DNA of 64,000 bases from Actinoplanes lobatus (GTDB taxonomy: Bacteria > Actinomycetota > Actinomycetes > Mycobacteriales > Micromonosporaceae). This document shows, piece after piece, positions 24,975-64,000 of this stretch (positions are counted from its first letter, which is position 1; each line of letters begins with the position of its first letter). A program made the position numbers and the translations under genes. The DNA is taken from assembly GCF_014205215.1 (NCBI RefSeq), contig NZ_JACHNC010000001.1, positions 4,469,001 through 4,533,000 of the forward strand, written 5' to 3'. Below the pieces are notes generated by a model that was not told the origin of the DNA, ran no database searches, and was given only the letters and a program-made list of their open reading frames with translations.

Positions 24975-27368
<2,394 letters not shown>

Positions 27369-42341: not shown

Positions 42342-42626
42342 TCGGCCCTTCTTGTTAGCGATATCAGAATTTTGGGAGAAACGGTTCCGGAAAACTGTTA
42401 TCTGGACCCGTCTTGCCTGGTCGACGCCGTATTGATTGGCTCTGGATATTTAGCTCAGCGGTTTGGTAGCGTTCCCGGAGATTGCATTCTCTGTGGTCGT
42501 GAATTCGCCCTCACCACCCCTTTGAGGCGCGACCCCGTATCCCGAACGGCCACGGACCGGCAGTTCAGCTCGCCCGCGTCGGGTGAGCTCTCCCCGTACA
42601 TCCCCGAGGTCTTTGGAGAACCGCCC
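42342..42626. other. Leader of GH62 gene with a tRNA-like stretch
   Basis: AT-richer than its surroundings. No AGCGCT operator is seen, in contrast to the other secreted enzymes. At 42444-42515 a stretch looks like parts of a tRNA (TTAGCTCAGCGGTTTGGTAG and an anticodon-like arm), but the acceptor stem does not close. The open frame that extends upstream of the GH62 start to 42372 is not credible as coding. Confidence 0.4.
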
Positions 42627-44114
42627 ATGACATCCACCCGGGCTCGCCGCAGCAGGTGGCGTGGCGCTCTGGCCGCGATGGTCCTGCTCGCCGGCGGCGG
42701 AGCCGTCGCGGTGATCGCGTCCCCAGCGTCCGCCGCGACGATCGACACCAGCGCCTCCTACGTGCTGGTCAACCGCAACAGTGGCAAGGCTCTCGACGTC
42801 TACAACCTGTCCACCGCCGACGGTGGCCGGATCACCCAGTGGACGCGCAACGACCAGGCACAGCAGCAGTGGCAGTTCGTCGACTCCGGTAGCGGCTACT
42901 ACCGGCTCAAGTCGAGGCACTCCGGCAAGGTGCTCGACGTCTACAACATGTCAACCGTCGACGGCGGTTCGATCGTGCAGTGGACGGACAACAACACGAC
43001 GAATCAACAGTTCAAGATTGACGATGTTGACGGCTATATCCAGTTGATCAACCGCAACAGCGGCAAGGCCGTCGAGGTGCAGGGCGCATCAACCGCGGAC
43101 AGCGCCAACATCGTCCAGTACTCCGACTGGAACGGCGCCAACCAGCAGTGGCAGCTCGTCCGGGTCGGCACGTCCACGCCCACGACGACCCCGACGAGCG
43201 GCGCCTGCACTCTGCCGTCGACCTATCGCTGGTCGTCAACCGGTCAGCTCGCGACCCCCAAGTCGGGATGGGCGTCGCTCAAGGACTTCACCCATGCGCC
43301 CTACAACGGACGGCAACTGGTCTACGCGACCACCCACGACACCGGCACCACGTGGGGCTCGATGAACTTCGGTCTGTTCACCAACTGGACCGACATGGCG
43401 TCGGCCAGTCAGAACACGATGACGTCGTTCTCCGCCGTGGCGCCGTCACTGTTCTACTTCGCGCCGAAGAACGTGTGGGTGCTCGCCTACCAGTGGGGCG
43501 GGCCGGCGTTCTCCTACCGGACCTCCAGCGATCCCACCAACCCGAACGGCTGGTCGTCGGCGCAGACGCTGTTCTCCGGCAGCATCTCCGGCTCCGGCAC
43601 CGGGCCGATCGACCAGACGCTCATCGGTGACGGCACGAACATGTACCTGTTCTTCGCCGGGGACAACGGCAAGATCTACCGGGCGAGCATGCCGATCGGG
43701 AACTTCCCCGGCAGCTTCGGCAGCACCTCCACGATCGTCATGAGCGACACCACGAACAACCTGTTCGAGGCGCCCCAGATCTACAAGGTCCAGGGCCAGA
43801 ACCAGTACCTCATGATCGTCGAGGCGATCGGCGCCAACGGCCGCTACTTCCGGTCGTTCACGGCCACCAGCCTGGGCGGTACGTGGACGCCGCAGGCCGC
43901 CACCGAGAGCAACCCGTTCGCGGGGAAGGCCAACAGTGGCGCCACCTGGACCAACGACATCAGCCACGGTGAGCTGATCCGGACCTCCGCCGACCAGACC
44001 ATGACCGTCGACCCCTGCAACCTGAGGCTGCTCTACCAGGGCCGTTCGCCCAGCTCCGGCGGCGACTACGGGCTCCTGCCGTACCGGCCGGGCCTGCTGA
44101 CGCTCCAGCGCTGA
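42627..44114 (+). CDS. Secreted GH62 alpha-L-arabinofuranosidase with CBM13
   Basis: 495 residues. Signal peptide (1-36, ASA-A). Residues 40-175 are a ricin-type beta-trefoil (CBM13) with three QxW-type repeats (QQQWQF, NQQFKI, NQQWQL) and a recurring NRNSGKA-x-(D/E)V motif. After a short Thr/Pro linker, GH62 (about 190-495) has SLKDF (catalytic Asp), DQTLIGDG and LFEAPQ (acid Glu). It removes single arabinose units from arabinoxylan. ATG 42627 has TTTGGAG upstream; codons further upstream are not part of it. A paralogue with a different binding module is at 46116. Confidence 0.92.
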
Positions 44115-44146: not shown

Positions 44147-44311
44147 GCCGTGCTCAGTGCTGTGCGGGCCGGTCCGTCTCTCGCCGTGTTCAGCGTTGTG
44201 CGGGCCGGTCCGTCTCTCGCCGTGTTCAGTGCTGTGCGGGCCGGTTCGTCTCGTGCCGTGTTCAGTGCTGTGCGGGCCGGTTCGTCTCTTGCCGTGTTCA
44301 GCGCTGGGACG
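44147..44311. repeat. 36-bp tandem repeat overlapping 3' end of sigma gene
   Basis: Units start with GCCGTG at 44147, 44183, 44219, 44255 and 44291 (the last partial). They differ at few positions. The partial unit contains the stop codon of the minus-strand sigma gene, so the array looks like serial duplication of the segment just after that gene. No spacers, so not CRISPR. Confidence 0.93.
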
Positions 44312-45743
44312 CCGGCCGGATCAGGAAGGAGCCGTCGGCGCGGAAGGCGGCGCTGTCGTCGGACCGGTCGACCCACAGCTCGTTCTCGCGATGCCGCAGG
44401 AACCAGCCGGGGTAGTTCGACGACTCCAGCGCCACCGAACCGGGAATCGACCCGGCCCGGACACAGAACGTGGCGTCTCCGCGGAACAGGTTCGTTTCCA
44501 CGTCCTTGTGGGCACGCAACTGCCACGACGAGTGCCGCAGGTAGCGGCCGTCCGCCGTACGGAAGGAGAAGCAATCCGGATCGGCCAGCCCGGCGACCGC
44601 CTGGAACGTGGCCTGCTCCCGCGCCGTGGCCAGCACGCCGGTCTCACCGGAGACGGTCACGTATCTCCCCGCGACGTTCGCCGACTCCAGGAAGACGGGA
44701 CCGGTCGGCATCGCCTGCACGGCCGGCGTCGTCGCCGGCTCGCCGGGGGTGGTGAGCACGGTCGGCGTCGTCGCCTTCGGCTCGCCGGAGGTGGTGAGCG
44801 CGGCCACGGCCGTACCGATGACCAGGGCGCCCGCGACGACGGCGATGACCGTCGGGCGTAGCCGTGCGCCGAGCCACCGGGCCCGGTCCGCCGCCGCGCC
44901 GGAAGCGGAGGCCGCCGGCTGGGCGAGGCCGGCCACCACGTTCTCCGGCGTCCAGTTGGCGAGGACCGCCGCGGTCACCGTGGCCGGAACCGGGATCAGG
45001 AGGAGACCGGCCAGCAGACGGTCGGCCGGCACCAGATCGTCCGCCTCACGGCGGCAGGAACGGCACGAGTGCAGGTGCCGGGCCAGACGCTTGCGCCACA
45101 GCGGCCCGGCGACACCGTCCCAGCCGGTGGTTTCGCCGGCCAGGCCGGCGCAGATCGGCCGGGCGCCGAGGGCCGCCTCGACGCCGCGGGCCAGGTCGAG
45201 TTGCCCGCGCATCCGCTGGATCCGCACCCCGGCATGGCTCACCGTCACGCCCAGCGCCTCCGCGAGTTCCGATCGCGAGAGCCGGCCGGCGACCTCCAGC
45301 CACCACAGCGCCAGCAGCGCCCGGTCGCCGGTGTCGAGCCAGCGCGCCGCCTGTCGTACCTGACGGCGTTGATCGGACAGCTCCAGGCGCAGATGGGTGA
45401 GGCCTTCGAAGCCCGCGCCCGGCAGCCGTTCCGCCTCGTCGACGGCGGCCCTGCGCCGGGCGGCCTGCCTCGTCCGCAGCTGGTGGGTGCTGATCTGGCG
45501 TAACGCGATGGCGGCCAGCCACGGGCGGAAGCTCTCCGGGGAACGCAGCGACGGCAGTTGCCGGAGGGCGCGCACCATGACGTCCTGGACCACGTCGTCG
45601 ACGTCCGGGTGCCCGTCGAGCGCCTGCGCGGTGAGCGCGTAGACCATCGGCAGGTGCGCCGACACGAGCTCCTCGAGCGCATCCCGGTCCCCGGCCCGCG
45701 CGGCGCGGACGAGCGTGGTGCCGTCCGTACGCGTGGCTGGCAT
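44298..45743 (-). CDS. Transmembrane ECF sigma factor fused to extracellular AbfB (CBM42) domain
   Basis: 481 residues. Sigma region 2 (about 20-95: DVDDVVQDVMVRALRQLP), sigma region 4 (about 130-195: LSRSELAEALGVTVSHAGVR), then an HxxxCxxC motif (His223, Cys227, Cys230), as in zinc-binding anti-sigma domains. A single helix (298-316) and a Thr/Pro linker (318-348) are followed by an AbfB-type beta-trefoil (about 350-481: FLESANVAGRYV, YLRHSSWQLRAH, SVALESSNYPGWFLRHREN). AbfB domains bind arabinofuranose side chains. So one chain carries a transcription factor inside and an arabinan-binding domain outside. It lies between two GH62 genes and before a GH30 gene, its likely targets. I infer regulated release or reorientation on substrate binding; not shown. 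Confidence 0.88.
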   Translation of the reverse strand: MPATRTDGTTLVRAARAGDRDALEELVSAHLPMVYALTAQALDGHPDVDDVVQDVMVRALRQLPSLRSPESFRPWLAAIALRQISTHQLRTRQAARRRAAVDEAERLPGAGFEGLTHLRLELSDQRRQVRQAARWLDTGDRALLALWWLEVAGRLSRSELAEALGVTVSHAGVRIQRMRGQLDLARGVEAALGARPICAGLAGETTGWDGVAGPLWRKRLARHLHSCRSCRREADDLVPADRLLAGLLLIPVPATVTAAVLANWTPENVVAGLAQPAASASGAAADRARWLGARLRPTVIAVVAGALVIGTAVAALTTSGEPKATTPTVLTTPGEPATTPAVQAMPTGPVFLESANVAGRYVTVSGETGVLATAREQATFQAVAGLADPDCFSFRTADGRYLRHSSWQLRAHKDVETNLFRGDATFCVRAGSIPGSVALESSNYPGWFLRHRENELWVDRSDDSAAFRADGSFLIRPASQR

Positions 45744-46115
45744 CTGTCGTCACCGCCCGTGGGTGCGGGCCCGATGGCGTGCGGACGCTTTCCGGGCGGG
45801 CCTCTGACTCTGGACGACCCTGTTCACGGAGTCAATGGATGGGGTGTACCGCCCTGATCCGGAGCCGAGCCGTGAACGGCGCGATATTTCGGTTCGCACC
45901 ATTCATCGAAATTGTGGGTGGGGAAAGTGTTATGCGGAGGGATTCCATGGAGTCGTAATGCCGTCTCGATGCGTTGAGCTGCGTAAATGTGCTGCCGGAG
46001 TGATTCCTTGAATGAATGGGAGCGCTCCCGTAGCATTCGGGAATCGGCTGTCGGCCCCATGTGAAGTGATCGATCCCCGCGATCGCCCAGCCGTTGTCCC
46101 CGTCAGGAGAGAAGC
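45744..46115. other. Divergent control region of sigma/AbfB and GH62-2 genes
   Basis: No gene seen. It holds the CebR-like operator at 46017-46030, AT-richer stretches near 45890-46015, and both promoters, which I cannot place with confidence. A self-recognition promoter of the ECF factor should lie here if it is autoregulated. Confidence 0.5.
46017..46030 (+). promoter_or_regulatory. CebR-type operator upstream of GH62-2
   Basis: TGGGAGCGCTCCCG, one base from the perfect palindrome at 24998, 86 bp before the start codon. It links this hemicellulase gene, and perhaps the following GH30 gene, to cellobiose control. Confidence 0.8.
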
Positions 46116-47489
46116 ATGCGCGAAGTCAAAGGTGCCCGGTGGGGCGCCGCGCTGGGTGGTGTCCTGTTGGCCGGCTCGGCGGCGATCGTGGTGGCGCTCC
46201 CCGCCGCCGCGGCCGCGGGCTGTTCGGTGAACTACGCGGTGTCGTCGCAGTGGGAGGGCGGATTCGGCGCCGCCGTGACCGTGACCAATCTCGGCGACGC
46301 GATCAACGGATGGACGCTGACCTGGTCCTACAGTGCGGGCCAGCAGGTCACCCAGGCCTGGAACACGACGCTCACCCAGTCCGGCGCCGCGGTGACGGCC
46401 CGCAACGTCAGCTACAACGCGGCGATCGCCACCAACGGGAGCGTCTCGTTCGGCTTCAACGGCACATGGACCGCCGCCAACCCGGCGCCGGCGGGATTCG
46501 CTCTCAACGGGGTCGCCTGCACCGGCGGCACCACACCCACGACACCACCGTCCACGCCTCCGTCGTCCTCGCCGCCGGTGTCGTGCGCGCTGCCGTCGTC
46601 GTACCGGTGGACGTCGACCGGCTCGCTGGCCACTCCCAAGTCGGGCTGGGTGTCGCTCAAGGACTTCACCACGGCGCCGTACAACGGCCGGCAGCTCGTC
46701 TATGCGACCACCCACGACACCGGCACCACGTGGGGCTCGATGAACTTCGGTCTGTTCACCAACTGGTCCGACATGGCCTCGGCCGGCCAGAACACCATGT
46801 CGTCAAGCACGGTCGCGCCGTCGCTGTTCTATTTCGCGCCGAAGAACGTCTGGGTGCTCGCCTACCAGTGGGGCGGGCCGGCGTTCTCCTACCGCACCTC
46901 CAGTGACCCGGCCAACGCCAACGGCTGGTCAGCCCCGCAGACGCTGTTCTCCGGCAGCATCTCCGGTTCCGGGACCGGCCCCATCGACCAGGCCGTCATC
47001 GGCGATTCGACGAACATGTACCTGTTCTTCGCCGGGGACAACGGCAAGATCTACCGGGCGAGCATGCCGATCGGGAACTTCCCCGGCAGCTTCGGCAGCA
47101 CCTCCACGGTGGTCATGAGCGACACCACCAACAACCTGTTCGAAGCCGTCCAGGTCTACAAGGTGGCCGGCCAGAGCCAGTACCTGATGCTCGTCGAGGC
47201 GATCGGCGCCAACGGCCGCTACTTCCGGTCGTTCACGGCCACCAGCCTGGGCGGTACGTGGACGCCGCAGGCCGCCACCGAGAGCAACCCGTTCGCGGGG
47301 AAGGCCAACAGCGGCGCCACCTGGACCAACGACATCAGCCACGGTGAGCTGATCCGGACCTCCGCCGACCAGACCATGACCATCGACCCCTGCCATCTGC
47401 AACTGCTCTACCAGGGACGATCCCCCAGCTCCGGCGGCGACTACGGCCTGCTGCCCTACCGTCCCGGCCTGCTCACCCGCAGCTCGTAG
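46116..47489 (+). CDS. Secreted GH62 alpha-L-arabinofuranosidase with CBM2
   Basis: 457 residues, AGGAGAG before ATG 46116. Signal peptide (1-33), CBM2 (about 35-135: [19 protein letters not shown] to ACTG), Thr/Pro/Ser linker, then GH62 (about 155-457) with [13 protein letters not shown] and LFEAVQ. Its catalytic domain is nearly the same as that of the enzyme at 42627; stretches of 100-190 bp match almost base for base, while the binding modules differ. Expected to strip arabinose from arabinoxylan attached to cellulose. Its gene is 46 bp before the GH30 gene and probably in one operon with it. Confidence 0.94.
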
Positions 47490-47535: not shown

Positions 47536-49227
47536 ATGCGAAAGCCTCGAGTCACGAGCACCGTACTGCTATCGGCCGGCGTTCTTCTCGCCTCCACGAC
47601 GGTCGCCGTGGCCCTGCCCGCCGGTGCCGCCGCCGCGGGCTGCGCGGTGAAGTACACCGTCTCCTCGCAGTGGCAAGGCGGATTCGGCGCCGACGTCACC
47701 ATCACCAACCTCGGCGATCCGCTCACCAGCTGGACCCTGACCTGGTCCTACAGCGCCGGGCAGACCGTCACCCAGGCGTGGAACGCGACGGTGACCCAGA
47801 ACGGCGCCGCGGTCACCGCGAGGAACGTCAGCTACAACGGCGCGATCGCCACCAACGGGACCGCCTCGTTCGGCTTCAACGGTGGATGGACCGCCGCCAA
47901 CCCGGCGCCGGTGGACTTCGCCGTCAACGGGGTGGCCTGCACCGGTGGCACCACTCCGACATCCTCACCGACCACGTCACCGAGCGCCCCGCCCAGCGCC
48001 ACGCCGGACATCACCGTGAACACGGCGACCAGATATCAGACCGTCGACGGTTTCGGGGCCGCGGTGTCGATCTGGGGCAGCGCCTGGTCGACCGCAGAGA
48101 CGCAGACCCTGGTCGGCCTGGGTGCCAACCAGTTCGGCCTGTCGATCGTGCGGACCGGCGTCTCACCGGTCTCCAGCGAATGGGCCACACAGGTCAACGC
48201 CCTGAAGACCGCGAAATCGTACGGCTCAGGCGTCAAGATCCTCGCTTCGCCCTGGACCGCCCCGGCCGCGTGGAAGACCAACAACAGCCGCACCAACGGC
48301 GGCAAACTCAAGACCGACTACTACGACGACTACGCCAACCACCTCAACAGCTACGTCCAGTACATGCGCGGCCAGGGCGTCACCGTCGACGTCACCTCGG
48401 TGCAGAACGAACCGGACTGGCACCCCGACTACGACTCGATGGACTGGAGCGGCACCGAACTGCGCGACTTCGCCCGCGACCAGGGCGCCAAGGTCCAGAA
48501 CACCCGGCTGATGGTCGCCGAGGCGGTCAACCTCAACTACGGCTACACCGACCCGGCCCTCAACGACGCGGTCGCCCGCGACAACATCGGCTACATCGGC
48601 GGCCACCTCTACGGCACCGAGGCGGCCGGCCGCCTGAAGGACTACCCGCTCGCCGCGCAGAACGGCAAGCCGGTGTGGATGACCGAATGGAACCTCCACG
48701 CGGCCGACGGCAGCGGCTCCAACATCTGGGGCGACCCCGCCAACCAGACCGTCTGGAACGAAACCCTCGACGACATCATGCGTACGGTCCACCGGTCGAT
48801 GGAGTCCAACTGGAGCGCCTACATCTGGTGGTACGGCAAGCGTTTCTACTCGTTCATCGGTGACGGTGAGGCCGCTTACGGCACCACGGCCGGCGTCCCG
48901 CTCAAACGTGGCTACGCGTTCTCCCAGTTCGCCAAATACGTCCGCCCCGGCTACCAGCGTGTCGCCCTGGCCAAGAGCACCAAGGCGTCGCCGCTGGAGA
49001 TCACCGCCTACCAGGGCGGCGGCAAGATCACCCTGGTCGTCCTCAACCGCTCGGCCGGCGCCGTGAACGACGCCGTCATCCAGGCCCCGCAGAACATCAG
49101 CCGCGCCGACCACTACGTGACCTCGCTCAACGCGAACGCGGCGAGCCAGCCGGCCACCGTCAGCGGGGGACAGGTCACCGTGGACGTCCCCGCCCGCAGC
49201 ATCTCCACCGTCGTTCTCACCCCCTGA
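47536..49227 (+). CDS. Secreted GH30 xylanase with N-terminal CBM2
   Basis: 563 residues. Signal peptide (1-34), CBM2 (about 36-137), linker, GH30 barrel plus side beta-domain (about 155-563). VQNEPDWHPDY carries the acid/base Glu and WMTEWNLHAADG the nucleophile. The compact size and the position among arabinoxylan genes suggest the glucuronoxylanase/xylanase subfamilies (GH30_7 or GH30_8), but beta-1,6-glucanase or other GH30 activities cannot be excluded. GGAAGG precedes the ATG. The CBM2 is close in sequence to that of the preceding GH62 gene. Confidence 0.88.
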   Translation: MRKPRVTSTVLLSAGVLLASTTVAVALPAGAAAAGCAVKYTVSSQWQGGFGADVTITNLGDPLTSWTLTWSYSAGQTVTQAWNATVTQNGAAVTARNVSYNGAIATNGTASFGFNGGWTAANPAPVDFAVNGVACTGGTTPTSSPTTSPSAPPSATPDITVNTATRYQTVDGFGAAVSIWGSAWSTAETQTLVGLGANQFGLSIVRTGVSPVSSEWATQVNALKTAKSYGSGVKILASPWTAPAAWKTNNSRTNGGKLKTDYYDDYANHLNSYVQYMRGQGVTVDVTSVQNEPDWHPDYDSMDWSGTELRDFARDQGAKVQNTRLMVAEAVNLNYGYTDPALNDAVARDNIGYIGGHLYGTEAAGRLKDYPLAAQNGKPVWMTEWNLHAADGSGSNIWGDPANQTVWNETLDDIMRTVHRSMESNWSAYIWWYGKRFYSFIGDGEAAYGTTAGVPLKRGYAFSQFAKYVRPGYQRVALAKSTKASPLEITAYQGGGKITLVVLNRSAGAVNDAVIQAPQNISRADHYVTSLNANAASQPATVSGGQVTVDVPARSISTVVLTP

Positions 49228-50841: not shown

Positions 50842-52479
50842 CTATGTCTGGTAGGTGGAGACCAGCTGCTGCAGTCCCGTCGCCATCGCGGCCAGGCTGT
50901 TCGCCGTCGCCTGTGTCTCCGACGCGCCCGACGCCGCCGAATCCGCCGCCGTCGCCACCCCCGCGATGTTTCCGGCGATCTCCCCGGTGCCCGTTGCCGC
51001 CTGCGCCACGTTCCGTACCATCTCGCTGGTCGTCGCGGTCTGCTCCTCCACCGCCGCGGCGATCGTCGACGTGTAGTCGTTGATCCGGCCGGTCACCTCC
51101 GCGATCTCCCCGATCGCCGAGATCGCCTGCGTGGTCTCGTCCTGGATCGCCGAGATCCGTGCCGCGATGTCACCGGTGGCCCGCGCCGTCTCCTGCGCCA
51201 GGTCCTTCACCTCGGTCGCGACCACCGCGAATCCCTTGCCGTGCTCACCCGCACGCGCCGCCTCGATGGTCGCGTTCAGCGCCAGCAGGTTCGTCTGCTC
51301 GGCGATCGACGTGATCAGCTGCACCACACCGGAGATCTGCGCCGAGGACTGCCCCAGCCGCGCCACGATCCTGTTGGTCCGGTCGGCCGCCTCCGCGGCC
51401 TCGGTGGCCACCTTCGCCGCCTCGCCCGCATTGCCCGCGATCTCGCCGATGGAGGCCGACATCTGCTCCGCGCCGGCCGCCACCGTCTGCACGTTCCCCG
51501 ACACCCGGTCGGCGGCCGCCGAGACCGTCCCCGCCTGTGCCGACGTCTCCTCCGACGCCGCCGACAGCTGCGTCGACACCGCCGACAACTCCTCTGCGGC
51601 CGCCGCCACCTGCGTGGCGTTGTCGGTCACCTCACGCACCATCGTCGCGGTCGACCCCGTCGAGGCGTCCAGCGCGATGGCCAGCTGCGCCACCTCGTCG
51701 CGGCCGGTGATCCCGGTCCGCTGGGTGAGGTCCCCACCCTGTACCCGGGTGAGCACGCCGACGCACCGCGACAGCCGGCCGGTGATCCCGCGGGCGATGA
51801 GCCAGCTCGCGACGCCGGCCAGCAGCATCCCGAGGATGACGAACACGGTCACCGTGGTCTCGGCGCTGTCGGCGGTGGCACGCGACTCGTCGTTGCGGGT
51901 GCGCGCGGCGGCGCCTTCGATCTCGATGAGGCTGTCCATTCCACCGTTGAGGTCGGCGAGGATCGACTTGGCCTCTTTGTCGCGTATGCGGGCGAACGCT
52001 TCCCGATCGTCCGTTTCCGCGGCCGCGGCGAGCTTGGTGTCGCGCAGCTGCTGCAGGGCGGCGACGGCCTGCTCGACCTGGGCGGCCGCCTGCTCCCGGC
52101 CGGTCATGTCCGTGCCGGTGTAGGCCGCGAACGCCTGGTCGAAGACCGCGTCCTCGTCCCTGCTGGCCTGGAGGAACGAGCGCACCTGAGCGGGGTCGGT
52201 GGATACCGCGGCGTTGAGCAGGCGGTTCTGCATGAGGTCGGTCGAGTGCTGCACCCGGGTCAGATCGGTGATCGGCACGAGCGTCTGGCCGTACAGGTAG
52301 TCGGACTGGCTCTGCATCCTGCTCATGTTGACCAGCGCGACGCCTGCCACGCCGGCGGCCGCCACCGCCATCGCGCCGACGGCCATTCCGATCTTGGTGC
52401 CGACCCTCAGGTCGGTCACCAGCCGCGTCCACCGGTGGCCGCGGAATCCCTGCATCTCGTCCGACCTGCTCACTGACAC
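50842..52479 (-). CDS. Methyl-accepting chemotaxis protein
   Basis: 545 residues. Two helices (about 33-52 and 208-228) flank a helical-bundle ligand domain of about 155 residues (4HB-like). A HAMP (230-282) is followed by the signalling domain, whose hairpin tip is [17 protein letters not shown] with the CheW-contact residues intact. Gln/Glu-rich methylation helices are present on both sides. No C-terminal CheR-docking pentapeptide. The ligand is unknown. A gene for a chemoreceptor implies flagellated cells or spores. Confidence 0.95.
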
Positions 52480-52788
52480 CCCCGTATTCGTGACCGGCTC
52501 AGCCGGGTGTGGCCCCCACCACGTTGCGTTTCTGATCGGATGGGCGGCGGAGTCGCTGAATACTTCGGCGCAGGAAATATTCAGAGGACGATCGGTCCAC
52601 AGTGGGTGCGGCGCCGGCCCTGACCGCGGAGCCGATCACCTCTGGGCAGCGCGGTTGATCCGCCCTTTCCGTAGCCGATATGCCGCTAATGTGAGGTAAA
52701 CAGCCAGAGACGCGCCTCGCGATGTCGCGGAAATCGCGAAATCGACGTGAACTGGCCTTATGTGTGACACCTCCCCAGGAGTGGAGAC
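52480..52788. other. Intergenic between chemoreceptor and histidine kinase genes
   Basis: Contains both start regions. No gene, repeat or clear operator seen. Confidence 0.5.
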
Positions 52789-54627
52789 ATGCAGAGGTTG
52801 CGTCGCGTTCGTGTCGGCGCGCGGCTCAGCGCCACTTTCGGATCGGTGACGCTCCTGCTGGTCGTCATGATCGGTGCTGCCGTCTGGAACATCGTCGCGC
52901 AGCGCCGCGCGGACCAACGCGTGGCCGCGTCCGCGGCGCTGCAACGTGACGCGCTCATCGCCAAGTTCCGCGCCGCCGACCTCAACGGCTGGCAGACCGG
53001 GTACGCGTTCAACGCGATCCGGGGCGTGCCGGACGCCACCACCGACACCGTGGGTATGCGTGCGAAGTTCCTGACCTCAGCGGAGGCCCTCAGGCAGGAT
53101 CTCGCCCGGATCGGAGCCCATGACCTCAGCGCGGGGGAGCGGCGGCAGCTGGTCACCGCGGAGAACGCGTTCGCCCGCTTCATGGAGATCGACGAGCGGA
53201 TCGTGGCCGGGTACCGGGCCCGCACGCCCGCCATGATGGCGGCGTCCGACGACCTGGTCGCGGGTGAGGCACTGGAGTGGTTCGACCGGGCCGCCACCGC
53301 GGTCGACCAGCTCGCCGTGCAGGCGCAGGCCGAGACGGCAAGCGACGCCGCCGCGGCCCGAACGACCAGCACCAGAGGGCTGACGCTCATGGTCGTCGTC
53401 GGTCTCACCTGTCTCGTGATCGCCACGGTGCTCACCTGGACAGCGGCGCGCAACCTGGTGAACAAGGCACGGAACAAGGCGATACTGGCCGCCATCGTCG
53501 AGCAGTCCGCCGACGCCACCCTCACGCTCGCTCTCGACGGAACCATCACGACCTGGAACAGCGGCGCCGAGCGCCTCTACGGGTACACCGCCGGCGAGGC
53601 CATCGGCCGTCGCGTGGCGATGCTGCTGCAACCCGACACCGAAGCCCGGCACGCCGGAGTGCTCAAAGGTCTGGCCGACGGCATCGAGTTCCAGCTCGAG
53701 GAGACGCCACGACGGCGCAAGGACGGCACCGAGATCTTCGTGTCGACGAACGTCTGGCCGCTCCGCGACGATGACGGGAGGCTCATCGGCGGTGCGGCCA
53801 CCGAGCGTGACGTCACCGCCCGCCGACGGCGGGAGGCCGAACAGAGGATCGCCGACGAACGCGCGGCCCGGGCCGCCCGCCTGGAGAGCCTCGGCCAGCT
53901 TGCCAGCGGCGTGGCACACGATTTCAACAACCTGCTCGCCATCATCCTCAACTGCATCGAGTTCATCGCCGAGGACACCGGCGACGAGGCGGCGGACGAT
54001 CTGACCCGGATCCGCAACGCCGCCCATCAGGCCCAGGAACTGACCAGCCAGCTGCTGCTGTTCGCCAAACGGGAACCGACCCACGTCGAGATCGTCGACC
54101 TGAACACGGTCGTCACGGACGCCACCGACCTGTTGAGCCGGGCCATCGGCGCCGGCGTCACCCTGCGGTGCCACACCTGCTCCAGGGCCCTGCCGGTGTA
54201 CGCCAACCGCAGCCGCCTCGACCAGATCCTGCTCAACCTCGTCATCAACGCCCGCGACGCGATGCCCGGCGGTGGATTCGTAGCGATCGCGACCAGCATC
54301 GTCGAGCTTTCCGAAGACCCGGCCCAGCCCTTGCCGCCCGGGCGCTACGCCCAGTTGACGGTCAGCGACAACGGCATCGGCATGAGCGCGGAGGTCAAGG
54401 ACCGCCTTTTCGAGCCCTTCTTCACCACCAAGCCGGCCGACCAGGGCACCGGCCTCGGGCTCGCCACCGTCTACGGCATCGTCGGCGACGCCGGAGGCAC
54501 CATCACCGTGGATTCCACGCTCGGCGCCGGCACCACCTTTCGGATCCTGCTGCCGCTGTCGCCGTTCGTCCGCCCGGAGCCGGCGCCGGAACACCGCACA
54601 CGCTCGTCCTCGGGACTGCCCGGATAG
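52789..54627 (+). CDS. PAS-domain hybrid-free sensor histidine kinase (orphan)
   Basis: 612 residues, ATG 52789 with AGGAGTGGAG. Helices at about 12-35 and 200-222 enclose a helical bundle of similar type to that of the neighbouring chemoreceptors (INGWQTGYAF-like turn: LNGWQTGYAFNAI). PAS (about 232-345) with TITTWNSGAERLYGYTAGEAIGR and an acceptor RRKDGTEIFV, then HisKA with LASGVAHDFNNLL (phospho-acceptor His377) and HATPase_c (NARDAMPGGG, DNGIGMS, GTGLGLATVYGI). No receiver domain and no response regulator gene next to it. The HDFNN type of kinase often pairs with single-domain receivers encoded elsewhere. Confidence 0.93.
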   Translation: MQRLRRVRVGARLSATFGSVTLLLVVMIGAAVWNIVAQRRADQRVAASAALQRDALIAKFRAADLNGWQTGYAFNAIRGVPDATTDTVGMRAKFLTSAEALRQDLARIGAHDLSAGERRQLVTAENAFARFMEIDERIVAGYRARTPAMMAASDDLVAGEALEWFDRAATAVDQLAVQAQAETASDAAAARTTSTRGLTLMVVVGLTCLVIATVLTWTAARNLVNKARNKAILAAIVEQSADATLTLALDGTITTWNSGAERLYGYTAGEAIGRRVAMLLQPDTEARHAGVLKGLADGIEFQLEETPRRRKDGTEIFVSTNVWPLRDDDGRLIGGAATERDVTARRRREAEQRIADERAARAARLESLGQLASGVAHDFNNLLAIILNCIEFIAEDTGDEAADDLTRIRNAAHQAQELTSQLLLFAKREPTHVEIVDLNTVVTDATDLLSRAIGAGVTLRCHTCSRALPVYANRSRLDQILLNLVINARDAMPGGGFVAIATSIVELSEDPAQPLPPGRYAQLTVSDNGIGMSAEVKDRLFEPFFTTKPADQGTGLGLATVYGIVGDAGGTITVDSTLGAGTTFRILLPLSPFVRPEPAPEHRTRSSSGLPG

Positions 54628-54648
54628 CGGACGATCCCGTCGGCCCGC

Positions 54649-55209
54649 CTACGGCGTCGCCTCCCGAAGCCATTCCCCGGCGAGCAGGGCGTACGTGTAC
54701 CCGTCCACCCAGCCCCGCTCGGCGTGCCAGGAGTCGCCGACACCGTGCTGCTCACGCCGCATGCCGACCTTTTCGAGGACCCGCACCGAGGCGAGATTGT
54801 CCGCGAAGCAGCCGGCGGTGATCCTTCGAATACCGAGCTGTTCGAACGCGTACGCCACCATCGCGGTGACCGCCTCCGTCGCGTGACCCCGGCCGCCGAA
54901 GGCCGGGTCGAAGGTGTAGCCGAGCAGGGCCTCCGTCCGCGACGGCATGCCGGGCTGACCCATGCCGTCGAGAGCCTCGAGTGAGACGGTTCCGATCACC
55001 ACGCCGTCCAGCACGACCGCCTTGCTGTGGTCGTGCGGGTCCGCCGTCGCGCGCCGCCACGCCGTCCGGAAGGACTCCGGTTCCACATTCGTACGCAACA
55101 GCCAGTGGGTGACCTCCGGCAGATTGCGGTACTCCAGGATCCGGTCGATGTCCTCGTCACGCACCGGGCGAAGCTCGAGGCGTTCAGTGCGCAGAATGTC
55201 GTTCCCCAT
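54649..55209 (-). CDS. GNAT family N-acetyltransferase (RimJ/RimL-like)
   Basis: 186 residues. TERLELRPVRDEDIDRILEY at the start, the acetyl-CoA loop FGGRGHATEAVTAMVAYAF near residue 115-135, and RITAGCFADNLASVRVLEKVGM toward the end are typical of the RimJ/RimL acetyltransferase branch. The ribosome site before ATG 55209 is weak; a frame start at 55236 is possible. Convergent with the kinase gene. The acceptor substrate is not predictable. Confidence 0.9.
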   Translation of the reverse strand: MGNDILRTERLELRPVRDEDIDRILEYRNLPEVTHWLLRTNVEPESFRTAWRRATADPHDHSKAVVLDGVVIGTVSLEALDGMGQPGMPSRTEALLGYTFDPAFGGRGHATEAVTAMVAYAFEQLGIRRITAGCFADNLASVRVLEKVGMRREQHGVGDSWHAERGWVDGYTYALLAGEWLREATP

Positions 55210-55398
55210 GGGGCGGGACGTTAGTGAACACCCCACAACCTCACACCCGATTATCCGCTCGCCGGCATCCGTACGTGAAACGTCTCACGCTTGGCCCGAA
55301 CTGGTCGCCTCGCGTCCCCGCAGGGCCGATGAGGCACGGCGTGCCACAGACGGGCACCACGACAGACCGACCCTTCTACGAATTACCCGGGAGACCGA

Positions 55399-57012
55399 GT
55401 GCGTATCGCCAACGTCCGTGTGGGCCGCCGGATGACAATCGCGTTCGCCACGCTCACCGCACTCATCGTGGCATCGGCCGGGGTCGGCTGGTGGGGCCTG
55501 GAGAAGACCAGCGAGGCACAGCAGCGTCTCGACAGCCTGGTCGAGGTCCACGACCGGGTCGCGGAGGCGCGCCTGCAACTGGCCGACATCAGTGGCTGGC
55601 AGGCCCTCGTCGTGCTCGACGTGGCGGTCGACGGTTTCCGGACGGCCACCGGCCCGGACGGAGCGAACCGCAAAGGCCTGCTGGAAGCCAAGGACGCCGT
55701 CTACGACCTGCTGGAGCGGGGCACCGCCGCGGCGACGACCACGCACGAGCGGGACCTGTGGGACCAGGTCAGGTCCGGCTGGGACGACTACTTCGCCGAG
55801 GACGACGCCCTGATGCGCGCGATCGAGAAGAACGAGCGGGCGGGCACGGCCGCGGCACAGAAGAGCTTCAACACGGGTACGACCGTCGAAACCTACGAGC
55901 GCATCGCCGACCTGTCCACCGCCCTGGAGGAGGACCTGAAGGCCCGGATGGCCGACGAGCGCGCCGACGCGGCCGACCTGCGCCACACCAGCTACGTGGC
56001 CCTCGGCGCGGCCCTGCTCGCCGCGCTGGCGGTGGCCACGGCCCTCAGCATCGTCATCACCCGCTCGGTGGTGCGCCCGCTGTCCACCGTGGTCGGCGCG
56101 CTGCGCGGGCTGGCCACCGGGGATCTCACCGTCCACGCCGATGTGCCGGGCAGGGACGAACTGGCCGAGCTGGGCGCCGCGCTCAACGAGACCACCTCGG
56201 CGCTGCGCAAGACCATGGGCGAACTGTCCGGTCACGCCGAGCACATGTCCGAGGCGTCCACCGACCTGACCGAGACCGCCTCGCAGATCGCCGCGGTCGC
56301 GGCCCGGACCAGTGGTGAGGCCGAGACGGTCGCGGAGAGCGCGGAGCGGGTGTCGGCCAACGTCCACACCGTCTCCGCCGGCAGTACGCAGATGGGCGGC
56401 TCGATCAGCGAGATCGCCGTGAACGCCGCCGAGGTCGCCACCGTCGTCCTGCAGGCGGTCGCCGCCGCCAAGAAGACGACCGCGACGATGACCCGCCTCG
56501 GCGAGTCGTCCACCGAGATCGGGACGGTGGTCAGGGCGATCACCGCGATCGCCGAGCAGACCAACCTGCTCGCCCTCAACGCGACGATCGAGGCGGCCCG
56601 CGCCGGCGAGATGGGCAAGGGCTTCGCGGTCGTCGCCAGCGAGGTCAAGGATCTCGCGCAGGAGACCGCGCGGGCCACCAGCGACATCGCCGGCCGGGTC
56701 CAGGCGATCCAGGACGACACCGTCGGCGCGGTGACCGCGATCGAGGAGATCGCCGAGATCATCAGCCGGATCAGCGGCTACCAGGACGTCATCACCTCGG
56801 CCGTGGAGGAGCAGCGCGCCACGACCACCGAGATGAGCCGCAACGTGTCCGAGGCGTCGACGGCCACCGAGCAGATCGCGGCGACCATCGCCAGCGTCGC
56901 GTCGGCGGCGAACACGACCGCCGACGGGGTCGACCGCTCCCGTCAGTCCGCCGCCGAGCTGGCCGCGGTGGCCGGCGACCTGCGTACCCTGGTGTCCGCC
57001 TTCAAGCTCTAG
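55399..57012 (+). CDS. Methyl-accepting chemotaxis protein
   Basis: 537 residues, GTG start with GGGAGACC upstream. Helix 1 (10-33) and helix 2 (about 195-217) enclose a helical ligand domain; [17 protein letters not shown] near residue 65 echoes the same region in the kinase at 52789. HAMP (about 218-270) and signalling domain with [17 protein letters not shown] at the tip. No CheR pentapeptide. The end overlaps the convergent acyltransferase gene by 11 bp. Confidence 0.95.

Positions 57013-63170: not shown

Positions 63171-64000
<830 letters not shown>

Follow-up and report, generated by a model that had tools for sequence, protein, structure and literature searches.

The question raised by this locus is whether a single polypeptide could sense an arabinose-containing glycan outside the cell and switch on the genes for its degradation. 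The window, i.e. the whole stretch of 64,000 nucleotides that was analysed (Actinoplanes lobatus, contig NZ_JACHNC010000001.1, positions 4,469,001 to 4,533,000), carries a minus-strand gene (44298..45743) for a 481-aa protein. On the basis of its reading frame, profile matches and homologues, this protein is a fusion of an extracytoplasmic function (ECF) sigma factor, a zinc anti-sigma-like region, a membrane helix and an AbfB domain, also classed as carbohydrate-binding module (CBM) family 42. The original prediction described the chain as a self-contained sensor, sigma factor and anti-sigma: the parts do lie in one chain, with AbfB as outer domain and with an association to hydrolase genes, but the novelty of the arrangement had been overstated. 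Judged from sequence comparisons, the protein is probably an ECF sigma factor of the ECF52/ECF53 kind that is held at the membrane, unites its parts in one polypeptide, senses through a CBM42-type domain and controls a small arabinoxylan-degradation regulon.

The frame at 44298-45743 lies on the minus strand and has 481 codons and an ATG start (the + strand is interrupted by stops); the frame had been predicted correctly, and the strand and start are added here. Sigma region 2 (residues 26-88; 45480..45668, minus strand) was matched by PF04542 (Sigma70_r2) with E 1.7e-12, as expected from the prediction. Sigma region 4 was placed at about residues 136-182 (45198..45338, minus strand): the sigma70-ECF model TIGR02937 spans residues 21-182 (E 3e-18), sigma4 part included, but Pfam Sigma70_r4 gave no match in the 481-aa protein, and residues 136-179 gave an HTH_AsnC-type match below the cut-off. 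The sigma part contains sigma2 and sigma4 regions only and matches an ECF profile, and the Protein Data Bank (PDB) sequence search of the fused protein returned sigma-E and CnrH.

For comparison, 124 loci were chosen by sigma-protein similarity only and their genes were called with a codon-usage caller. L177 was dropped (no called sigma gene), and two loci from the named set, L285 and L319, were left out too; the 123 loci with a called sigma gene comprise 85 AbfB-type loci and 38 loci with another outer domain (28 Glyco_hydro_cc, 7 beta-helix, 3 other). The predicted zinc motif, H223-x3-C227-x2-C230 (45054..45077, minus strand), is present: H223, C227, C230 and W216-R-K-R219 are each conserved in 122/123 family proteins, although the Pfam zf-HC2 profile gave no match in the 481-aa protein. 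The motif is joined to sigma4 by about five residues (model helices 168-193 and 199-204). A frame or assembly artefact was also considered; it is unlikely because the chain is conserved across the listed homologues, Sigma70_r2 and AbfB being found together in 120/120 rows (the best 120 of 657 homologues at E <= 1e-20, the query among them).

Kyte-Doolittle analysis gave the strongest hydrophobic stretch at residues 298-316 (2.43; 44796..44852, minus strand), a predicted membrane helix lying where the AlphaFold model has low confidence. The residues before 298 are arginine-rich and those after the helix are Thr/Pro-rich, so by the positive-inside rule, under which the charged flank of a membrane helix faces the cytoplasm, the N-side of the helix would be cytoplasmic. 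A single helix had been predicted; the strong one stands, but a second, weaker stretch at 243-261 (2.22), with the conserved prolines P251 and P253, had been overlooked. At least one 19-residue window above 1.6 was present between residues 230 and 400 in 117/123 family proteins. The AlphaFold model (mean pLDDT 81.6, pTM 0.39) is confident for the sigma part, the zinc region and the AbfB domain, and poor at 250-255 and over most of 264-337. No RsgI N-terminal or autocleaving periplasmic domain was present among the six Pfam families that matched with E up to 1.

The outer AbfB/CBM42 domain (residues 352-475; 44319..44690, minus strand) was matched by PF05270 with E 4.8e-37 (127.6 bits, cut-off 22.8), in line with the prediction. 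Foldseek returned as best PDB match of the fused protein 9fnk, the CBM42 of RsgI5 (target-normalised TM score 0.89), together with 3kmv and 1wd3, which places the domain in the beta-trefoil AbfB fold; by sequence, 9fnk ranks second behind the arabinofuranosidase 3akf. R403, H404 and D423 of the beta-lobe pocket, as well as C391 and C427, are invariant in 85/85 AbfB-type members. The gamma-lobe pair is partly kept (H451 in 45/85, D470 in 56/85) and the alpha lobe has no R-H pair. R403-H404 and D423 align with the YIRH...EDATF stretches of 1wd3. CBM42 modules bind alpha-L-arabinofuranose, and residues of the R403/H404/D423 type presumably hold this sugar. Because the beta-lobe residues are invariant and aligned with 1wd3, at least one arabinofuranose pocket is likely. 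The invariant pair C391 and C427 would suit an extracellular disulphide. The accessible text of PMC12203970 terms CBM42 arabinose-binding.

The AbfB domain might instead be only an anchor to a plant polymer or to the cell surface, the sigma factor being controlled otherwise (by transcription, by phosphorylation or by a zinc redox switch). SCO4117 of Streptomyces coelicolor, a fused sigma factor described in the accessible part of PMC5826349 as pleiotropic and carrying phosphorylation sites, would fit such control. However, a pocket that is invariant in the beta lobe and not in the gamma lobe, and an outer-domain type that tracks the gene neighbourhood, make the anchor quite improbable.

In the window the sigma gene is flanked by plus-strand glycoside hydrolase (GH) genes. 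A ricin-type lectin + GH62 gene (42627..44114; PF03664 E 4.2e-152 on the longer frame 42372-44114) is convergent with the sigma gene, and a CBM2-GH62 gene (46116..47489; PF03664 E 1.8e-151, PF00553 E 2.2e-31) is divergent from it and followed by a CBM2-GH30 gene (47536..49227; PF02055 E 3.8e-8, PF00553 E 1.5e-31). Pfam thereby confirms the flanking GH62 and GH30 genes of the original prediction.

The same association recurs elsewhere, as a survey of co-occurrence proposed with the prediction has now borne out. When four genes per side were clustered, the families near AbfB-type loci had representatives labelled by Pfam as GH10, GH62, GH43, GH127, GH11, alpha-galactosidase and GDSL esterase. 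To place neighbours in families, pieces of seed proteins, most of them Pfam-labelled (the seed L009:6590-8020 has AbfB and no labelled catalytic domain), served as phmmer queries (E < 1e-12). A GH62, GH43, GH127, GH10, GH11 or GH30 gene was found within 9 kb at 70/85 AbfB-type loci vs 3/38 other-domain loci (Fisher 1.7e-15, relatedness being ignored), and within 3 kb at 64/85 vs 1/38; for GH62 alone the 9-kb counts were 45/85 vs 2/38. Other cuts of the data were examined because the controls belong mostly to one orthologous group. Arabinoxylan-type hydrolase neighbours were present at 13/19 AbfB loci of a family-wide sample (two from the same genus), and at 11/11 loci of a second AbfB clade, which sits in a 49-row group (SH-aLRT 98) with 37/38 of the other-domain sigmas. 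On a Streptomyces globosus plasmid, an AbfB-type sigma gene stands immediately before a GH10-GH62 gene.

A shared, promoter-like upstream element provides a further link to these enzymes. Spaced word pairs were compared between 150 hydrolase upstream regions of AbfB loci and 417 upstream regions of other genes. The top pair, GTTA-N19-GTCG, was present in 48/150 hydrolase regions vs 0/417 background regions; with both strands read and sigma genes added, it was present in 85/220 vs 0/417, and any other spacing in at most 5/220. The aligned sites (hereafter M1) approximate AAAA-n-TGTTAT(G)-N16-(A/G)GTCG, some with TTT instead of AAA. Counted from the first base of GTTA to the last of GTCG they span 27 bases, which agrees with the dimensions of an ECF -35/-10 pair. 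In the AbfB loci (1.64 Mb) the form GTTAY-N17-RGTCG was matched 94 times, in the other-domain loci (0.74 Mb) twice, and one of these two precedes a GH10+GH62 gene.

The M1 long pattern, AANYGTTAY-N17-RGTCG, has three exact matches in the 10.4-Mb genome that contains the window (reversed pattern: one). The first (AACTGTTAT-N17-GGTCG; 42393..42423, plus strand) is the proposed promoter of the ricin-GH62 gene. The second (AAGTGTTAT-N17-AGTCG; 45925..45955, plus strand) is proposed to serve the CBM2-GH62 gene and perhaps the GH30 gene behind it. The third lies 930-960 bases beyond the window end, before a GH10-ricin xylanase gene 19 kb away, the 3' part of which is in the window (63171..64000, minus strand; PF00331 E 4.9e-111) and which extends about 616 bases beyond the window end. 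With one mismatch allowed, the genome holds 18 M1 matches vs 4 reversed, and the only further one near the locus lies upstream of a CBM2 gene, some 20-21 kb away, that bears a weak resemblance to esterases. The earlier claim that the sigma factor switches on the flanking GH62 and GH30 genes is supported by the M1 shared by both GH62 genes, but no M1 copy was found before the CBM2-GH30 gene in the window. In the closest relative (L073) a GH30 gene has M1, and here GH30 may be transcribed by read-through from the co-directional GH62 gene upstream. The earlier target set was too narrow, since M1 also precedes the GH10 gene and, with one mismatch, the CBM2 gene.

Among 60 genomes of the genus, the long pattern had 125 matches vs 20 for the reversed pattern: 38 of the 125 lay within 5 kb of an AbfB-type sigma gene, where the area alone would predict 0.16, the count at 25 kb was 53, and none was found within 25 kb of the 70 other-domain family sigmas of these genomes. 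Thirty-six genomes with an AbfB-type sigma contain 91 GH62 genes, 14 of which have a sense M1 within 2.5 kb upstream, and 8 of the 14 share no contig with the AbfB-type sigma or lie over 25 kb away from it; four of the 91 have an antisense M1 upstream and four an M1 downstream. In the family-wide set, the 18 genomes with an AbfB-type sigma hold 31 M1 matches and the 43 without it hold 12 (reversed pattern: 5 in all 61 genomes). M1 was found within 2.5 kb of 0/36 full-length GH62 rows from the 38 genomes searched among these 43. A near-identical match, AATCGTTAT followed by a few variable bases and then GCTGGGGGTCAAGGGGTCG or ACTGGGGGTCAAGGGGTCG, was seen in G085, G079, G090, G065, G088, G075 and G021; it is probably an unrelated conserved sequence that slightly inflates the pattern counts.

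These links also bear on the alternative that the protein senses arabinose polymers of its own envelope, or wall damage, and that the hydrolase association simply comes with a life on plant matter. Envelope sensing is common among ECF factors, and the Glyco_hydro_cc paralogues lie among recurrent neighbours other than this hydrolase set. However, both the neighbours and M1 point to arabinoxylan enzymes, and actinobacterial wall arabinan is made of D-arabinose, whereas CBM42 binds the alpha-L-arabinofuranose form. The envelope explanation is accordingly rated as highly improbable.

Recognition of M1 by the fused sigma factor is suggested by co-location, by the geometry of the element and by an element that the paralogues carry before their own genes. 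The last of these is the most telling support for a sigma promoter. The Glyco_hydro_cc paralogues have approximately GAAAACGTGTTATC...CGTCtCCC directly before their own gene: GTTA-N18-GTC was present in 22/28 and the N19 form in 2/28, vs 2/417 background regions in sense orientation. The 23/417 background regions with an antisense N18 copy are taken to be upstream of genes divergent from Glyco_hydro_cc sigma genes. In the paralogue block 13/14 columns are conserved at >=85%, vs 21/194 other upstream columns. A sigma promoter is also favoured by sense M1 copies upstream of AbfB-type sigma genes themselves, present in 13/70 upstream regions.

M1 could also be an activator site, because a housekeeping-like element follows it. 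Such a reading has another activator or second regulator bind M1 on a downstream promoter of housekeeping type (TTGAat-N17-cAATaT, with a LacI-type operator), and has the fused sigma factor control something else. The second element, TTGA-N15-CTGGCAA, was found downstream of M1 at 24 measured distances: 13 bases in 8 and 22-23 bases in 4, i.e. one helical turn apart, the others being 14 and 31-121 bases. A LacI-type operator follows the second element in many loci, some M1 copies face in the opposite direction to the gene, and the core GTTA-N19-GTCG was not seen in the scanned upstream regions of 39/85 AbfB loci. On the other side, other-domain paralogue sigma genes carry TGTTATC...GTC before their own gene, and M1 is co-located with AbfB-type and not with other-domain sigmas. 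A LacI-type regulator, the only other regulator type counted, was present within 9 kb in 16/85 AbfB loci, and both GH62 genes of the window have M1 but fall outside the set in which the strict second element was found. Taken together, we regard another activator at M1 as rather unlikely.

Downstream of M1, the sequence CTTGA-N6-GAAA-N4-CTGGCAAtaT is conserved in upstream regions of AbfB loci (e.g. L075, L107, L131), and in many loci LacI-type operators come after it. In the window, the palindrome GGGAGCGCTCCC (46018..46029; strand not assigned), which we take to be a LacI-family-type operator, lies about 60 bases after the M1 of CBM2-GH62, and a second copy is present at 24999-25010, far from the sigma gene. 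The sequence GCGCTCCC was found before the hydrolase genes of AbfB loci in 43/150 regions vs 6/417 background regions.

Several observations weigh against the sigma factor as the regulator of a sugar-induced M1 regulon. First, the element and the sigma genes are imperfectly matched: 39/78 AbfB-type sigmas of the genus have no exact long-pattern match within 25 kb, and 72/125 matches lie more than 25 kb from an AbfB-type sigma, some of them by chance. Promoter variants sought in the M1-negative loci yielded weaker word pairs only. The sigma gene in the window has no sense M1 copy, and the second AbfB-type sigma of the same genome (L009) has no M1. Orientation is mixed as well: the 94 matches in AbfB loci comprise 29 sense-only, 41 between divergent genes, 18 antisense-only and 6 of neither kind, although for 9 of the 18 antisense-only matches the locus holds a sense copy at that class of gene too. 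The paralogue spacing is 18 and that of M1 is 19, and neither the N18 nor the N19 element was found in the 7 paralogues of beta-helix type or in the 3 others. Secondly, none of the GH62/43/127/10/11/30 families was found within 9 kb in 15/85 AbfB loci, and 28/38 control loci form one orthologous group, so that the neighbour contrast does not represent 38 independent cases. Thirdly, the stretch at 243-261, if it crosses the membrane, would place the AbfB domain inside the cell, and release from the membrane alone would leave sigma factor and zinc lock joined, because sigma4 and the zinc region are only about five residues apart. Since every second AbfB-type sigma has no exact M1 in its vicinity, our confidence in the model as a whole is reduced.

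With these points in mind, the preferred explanation, a membrane-held sigma factor that reads arabinofuranose and acts at M1, would work as follows. In the resting cell, the zinc-motif region behind sigma4 would hold sigma2 and sigma4, and helix 298-316 would tether the chain to the membrane, leaving the AbfB domain on the outer side. The beta-lobe pocket would bind arabinofuranose side chains of arabinoxylan or arabinan or, alternatively, fragments freed by basal GH62/GH10 enzymes. Binding would lead to a cleavage or a change of shape by which the sigma part is set free, as the analogous IutY and RsgI suggest (see below). The lock might be loosened by binding or trimmed after release; for the clostridial RsgI proteins, the accessible text of PMC12203970 describes degradation of the released N-terminal fragments by ClpXP. 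The freed sigma factor would then direct RNA polymerase to TGTTAT(G)-N16-(A/G)GTCG promoters, the proposed targets in this genome being ricin-GH62, CBM2-GH62, the GH10 xylanase and, with one mismatch, the CBM2 gene of weak esterase similarity. A LacI-type operator beside many M1 promoters may add a second control.

The relatives of the protein allow a broader proposal. The same genome contains paralogues that are 40-46% identical over the first ~340 residues and differ in their outer parts, which are AbfB (L009), Glyco_hydro_cc (L010) and a right-handed beta-helix (L011); other relatives have a CAP domain or unlabelled tails. A match of some type at E <= 1e-30 was present in 59/60 genomes of the genus. 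In the family-wide draw, 32/61 genomes had a match at E <= 1e-20, stand-alone AbfB enzymes being counted too. AbfB-type proteins occur under names including Actinoplanes, Plantactinospora, Micromonospora, Virgisporangium, Catellatospora, Dactylosporangium, Asanoa and Streptomyces. Eighteen plasmid records were matched, a single one (H1) with a match reaching the AbfB part, and PADLOC gave no match. It is quite possible, and is proposed here tentatively, that Actinobacteria hold modular single-protein glycan receptors, with a constant sigma-anti-sigma-membrane part, exchangeable outer domains and a common TGTTAT...GTC code that varies slightly from subtype to subtype, the regulon being foretold by the outer domain; the AbfB subtype would be a dedicated arabinoxylan receptor acting in trans on hydrolase genes genome-wide. 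The AbfB-type sigmas that have no exact M1 nearby lowered confidence in this proposal too.

Further variants and neighbours were noted. Short relatives of 264-350 aa, ending soon after the zinc motif as called and with no outer domain, were found at 16 loci, 10 of them from Streptomyces (L272-L278, L280, L281, L284, L287, L289, L295, L300, L315, L321); they are either soluble forms, or decayed or mis-called ends. Several of these loci adjoin genes of the GH10 type, the GH5-ricin type (from Pfam scans of two genes) or, judged by eye, a GH95-like type. At L009:6590-10927, the second AbfB-type sigma gene of the A. lobatus genome comes directly after the genes of two secreted AbfB proteins, co-directional and operon-like, one of these proteins having GH43 and the other no labelled catalytic domain. 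At L013:9373-10002, a 209-aa protein has a membrane stretch and AbfB but no sigma part, and a gene that by eye resembles an ECF sigma gene (L013:12217-12783) lies ~2 kb away; the pair is possibly a split version of the fused sensor. In the window, three large genes between the two hydrolase clusters (50842-57012) resemble methyl-accepting chemotaxis proteins, judged by eye from their first residues.

How does this protein compare with known systems? By its predicted anatomy it is of the ECF52/ECF53 kind: it has the zinc motif H-x3-C-x2-C, at least one membrane helix and an outer carbohydrate domain. Fused sigma/zinc/membrane/carbohydrate proteins were thus already known from ECF52 and ECF53, and a CBM42 anti-sigma sensor from RsgI5, which is where the original prediction went too far. 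In the accessible text of PMC5826349, SCO4117 is called by its authors the first characterised ECF52 member. Like the present protein, ECF52 combines an ECF sigma factor, a zinc finger, a membrane region, a Pro-rich stretch and a carbohydrate-binding module in one chain; the group is restricted to Actinobacteria and proteolytic release was proposed. It differs in that the SCO4117 module is smart00776 and not AbfB, that deletion affects differentiation and antibiotics, that the proposed motif is CSGYN-17-SRHA, and that this text mentions no hydrolase operon around SCO4117. ECF53 likewise has fused anti-sigma and membrane parts, and for some ECF52/ECF53 members glycosyl hydrolase or carbohydrate-binding domains are predicted, a feature shared by the paralogues described here (accessible parts of PMC10766802 and PMC8999054); according to the review available as PMC10766802, carbohydrate sensing by the fused ECF52/ECF53 proteins awaits experimental validation. 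No report on an AbfB-type ECF sigma factor was found in the titles, abstracts and passages that were searched, which mostly excluded subscription literature, and the accessible parts of the Actinoplanes SE50/110 papers (PMC11205660, PMC7567727) held nothing on the fused sigma gene for the terms sought.

IutY of Pseudomonas putida (ECF243) is also a sigma factor fused to its own membrane anti-sigma part and proteolytically freed, but it responds to the siderophore aerobactin (accessible text of PMC8999054). The anatomy is known, and what appears new is the set of sensor, targets and promoter with its comparative support. It yields testable statements: the signal would be an arabinofuranosyl glycan, the promoter TGTTAT(G)-N16-RGTCG and the targets a short GH62/GH10/GH43 list. 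With a sugar-binding domain coupled to transcription in a single gene, such a protein would offer a simple building block for sugar-responsive expression in actinomycetes; the type of outer domain might also give a clue to the substrate on which a hydrolase cluster acts. A further parallel is RsgI5/SigI5 of Clostridium thermocellum, where a CBM42 sensor sits on a membrane-held anti-sigma factor and provides the best fold match found here (9fnk). The RsgI paralogues also carry differing sensor domains, GH10 included (accessible text of PMC12203970). Unlike the present protein, that system consists of two proteins, a SigI-type sigma factor and an RsgI-type anti-sigma factor with an autocleaving domain, and uses another promoter type (accessible text of PMC4711584). 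The modular receptor set proposed here would, if true, be the one-polypeptide counterpart of clostridial SigI/RsgI.

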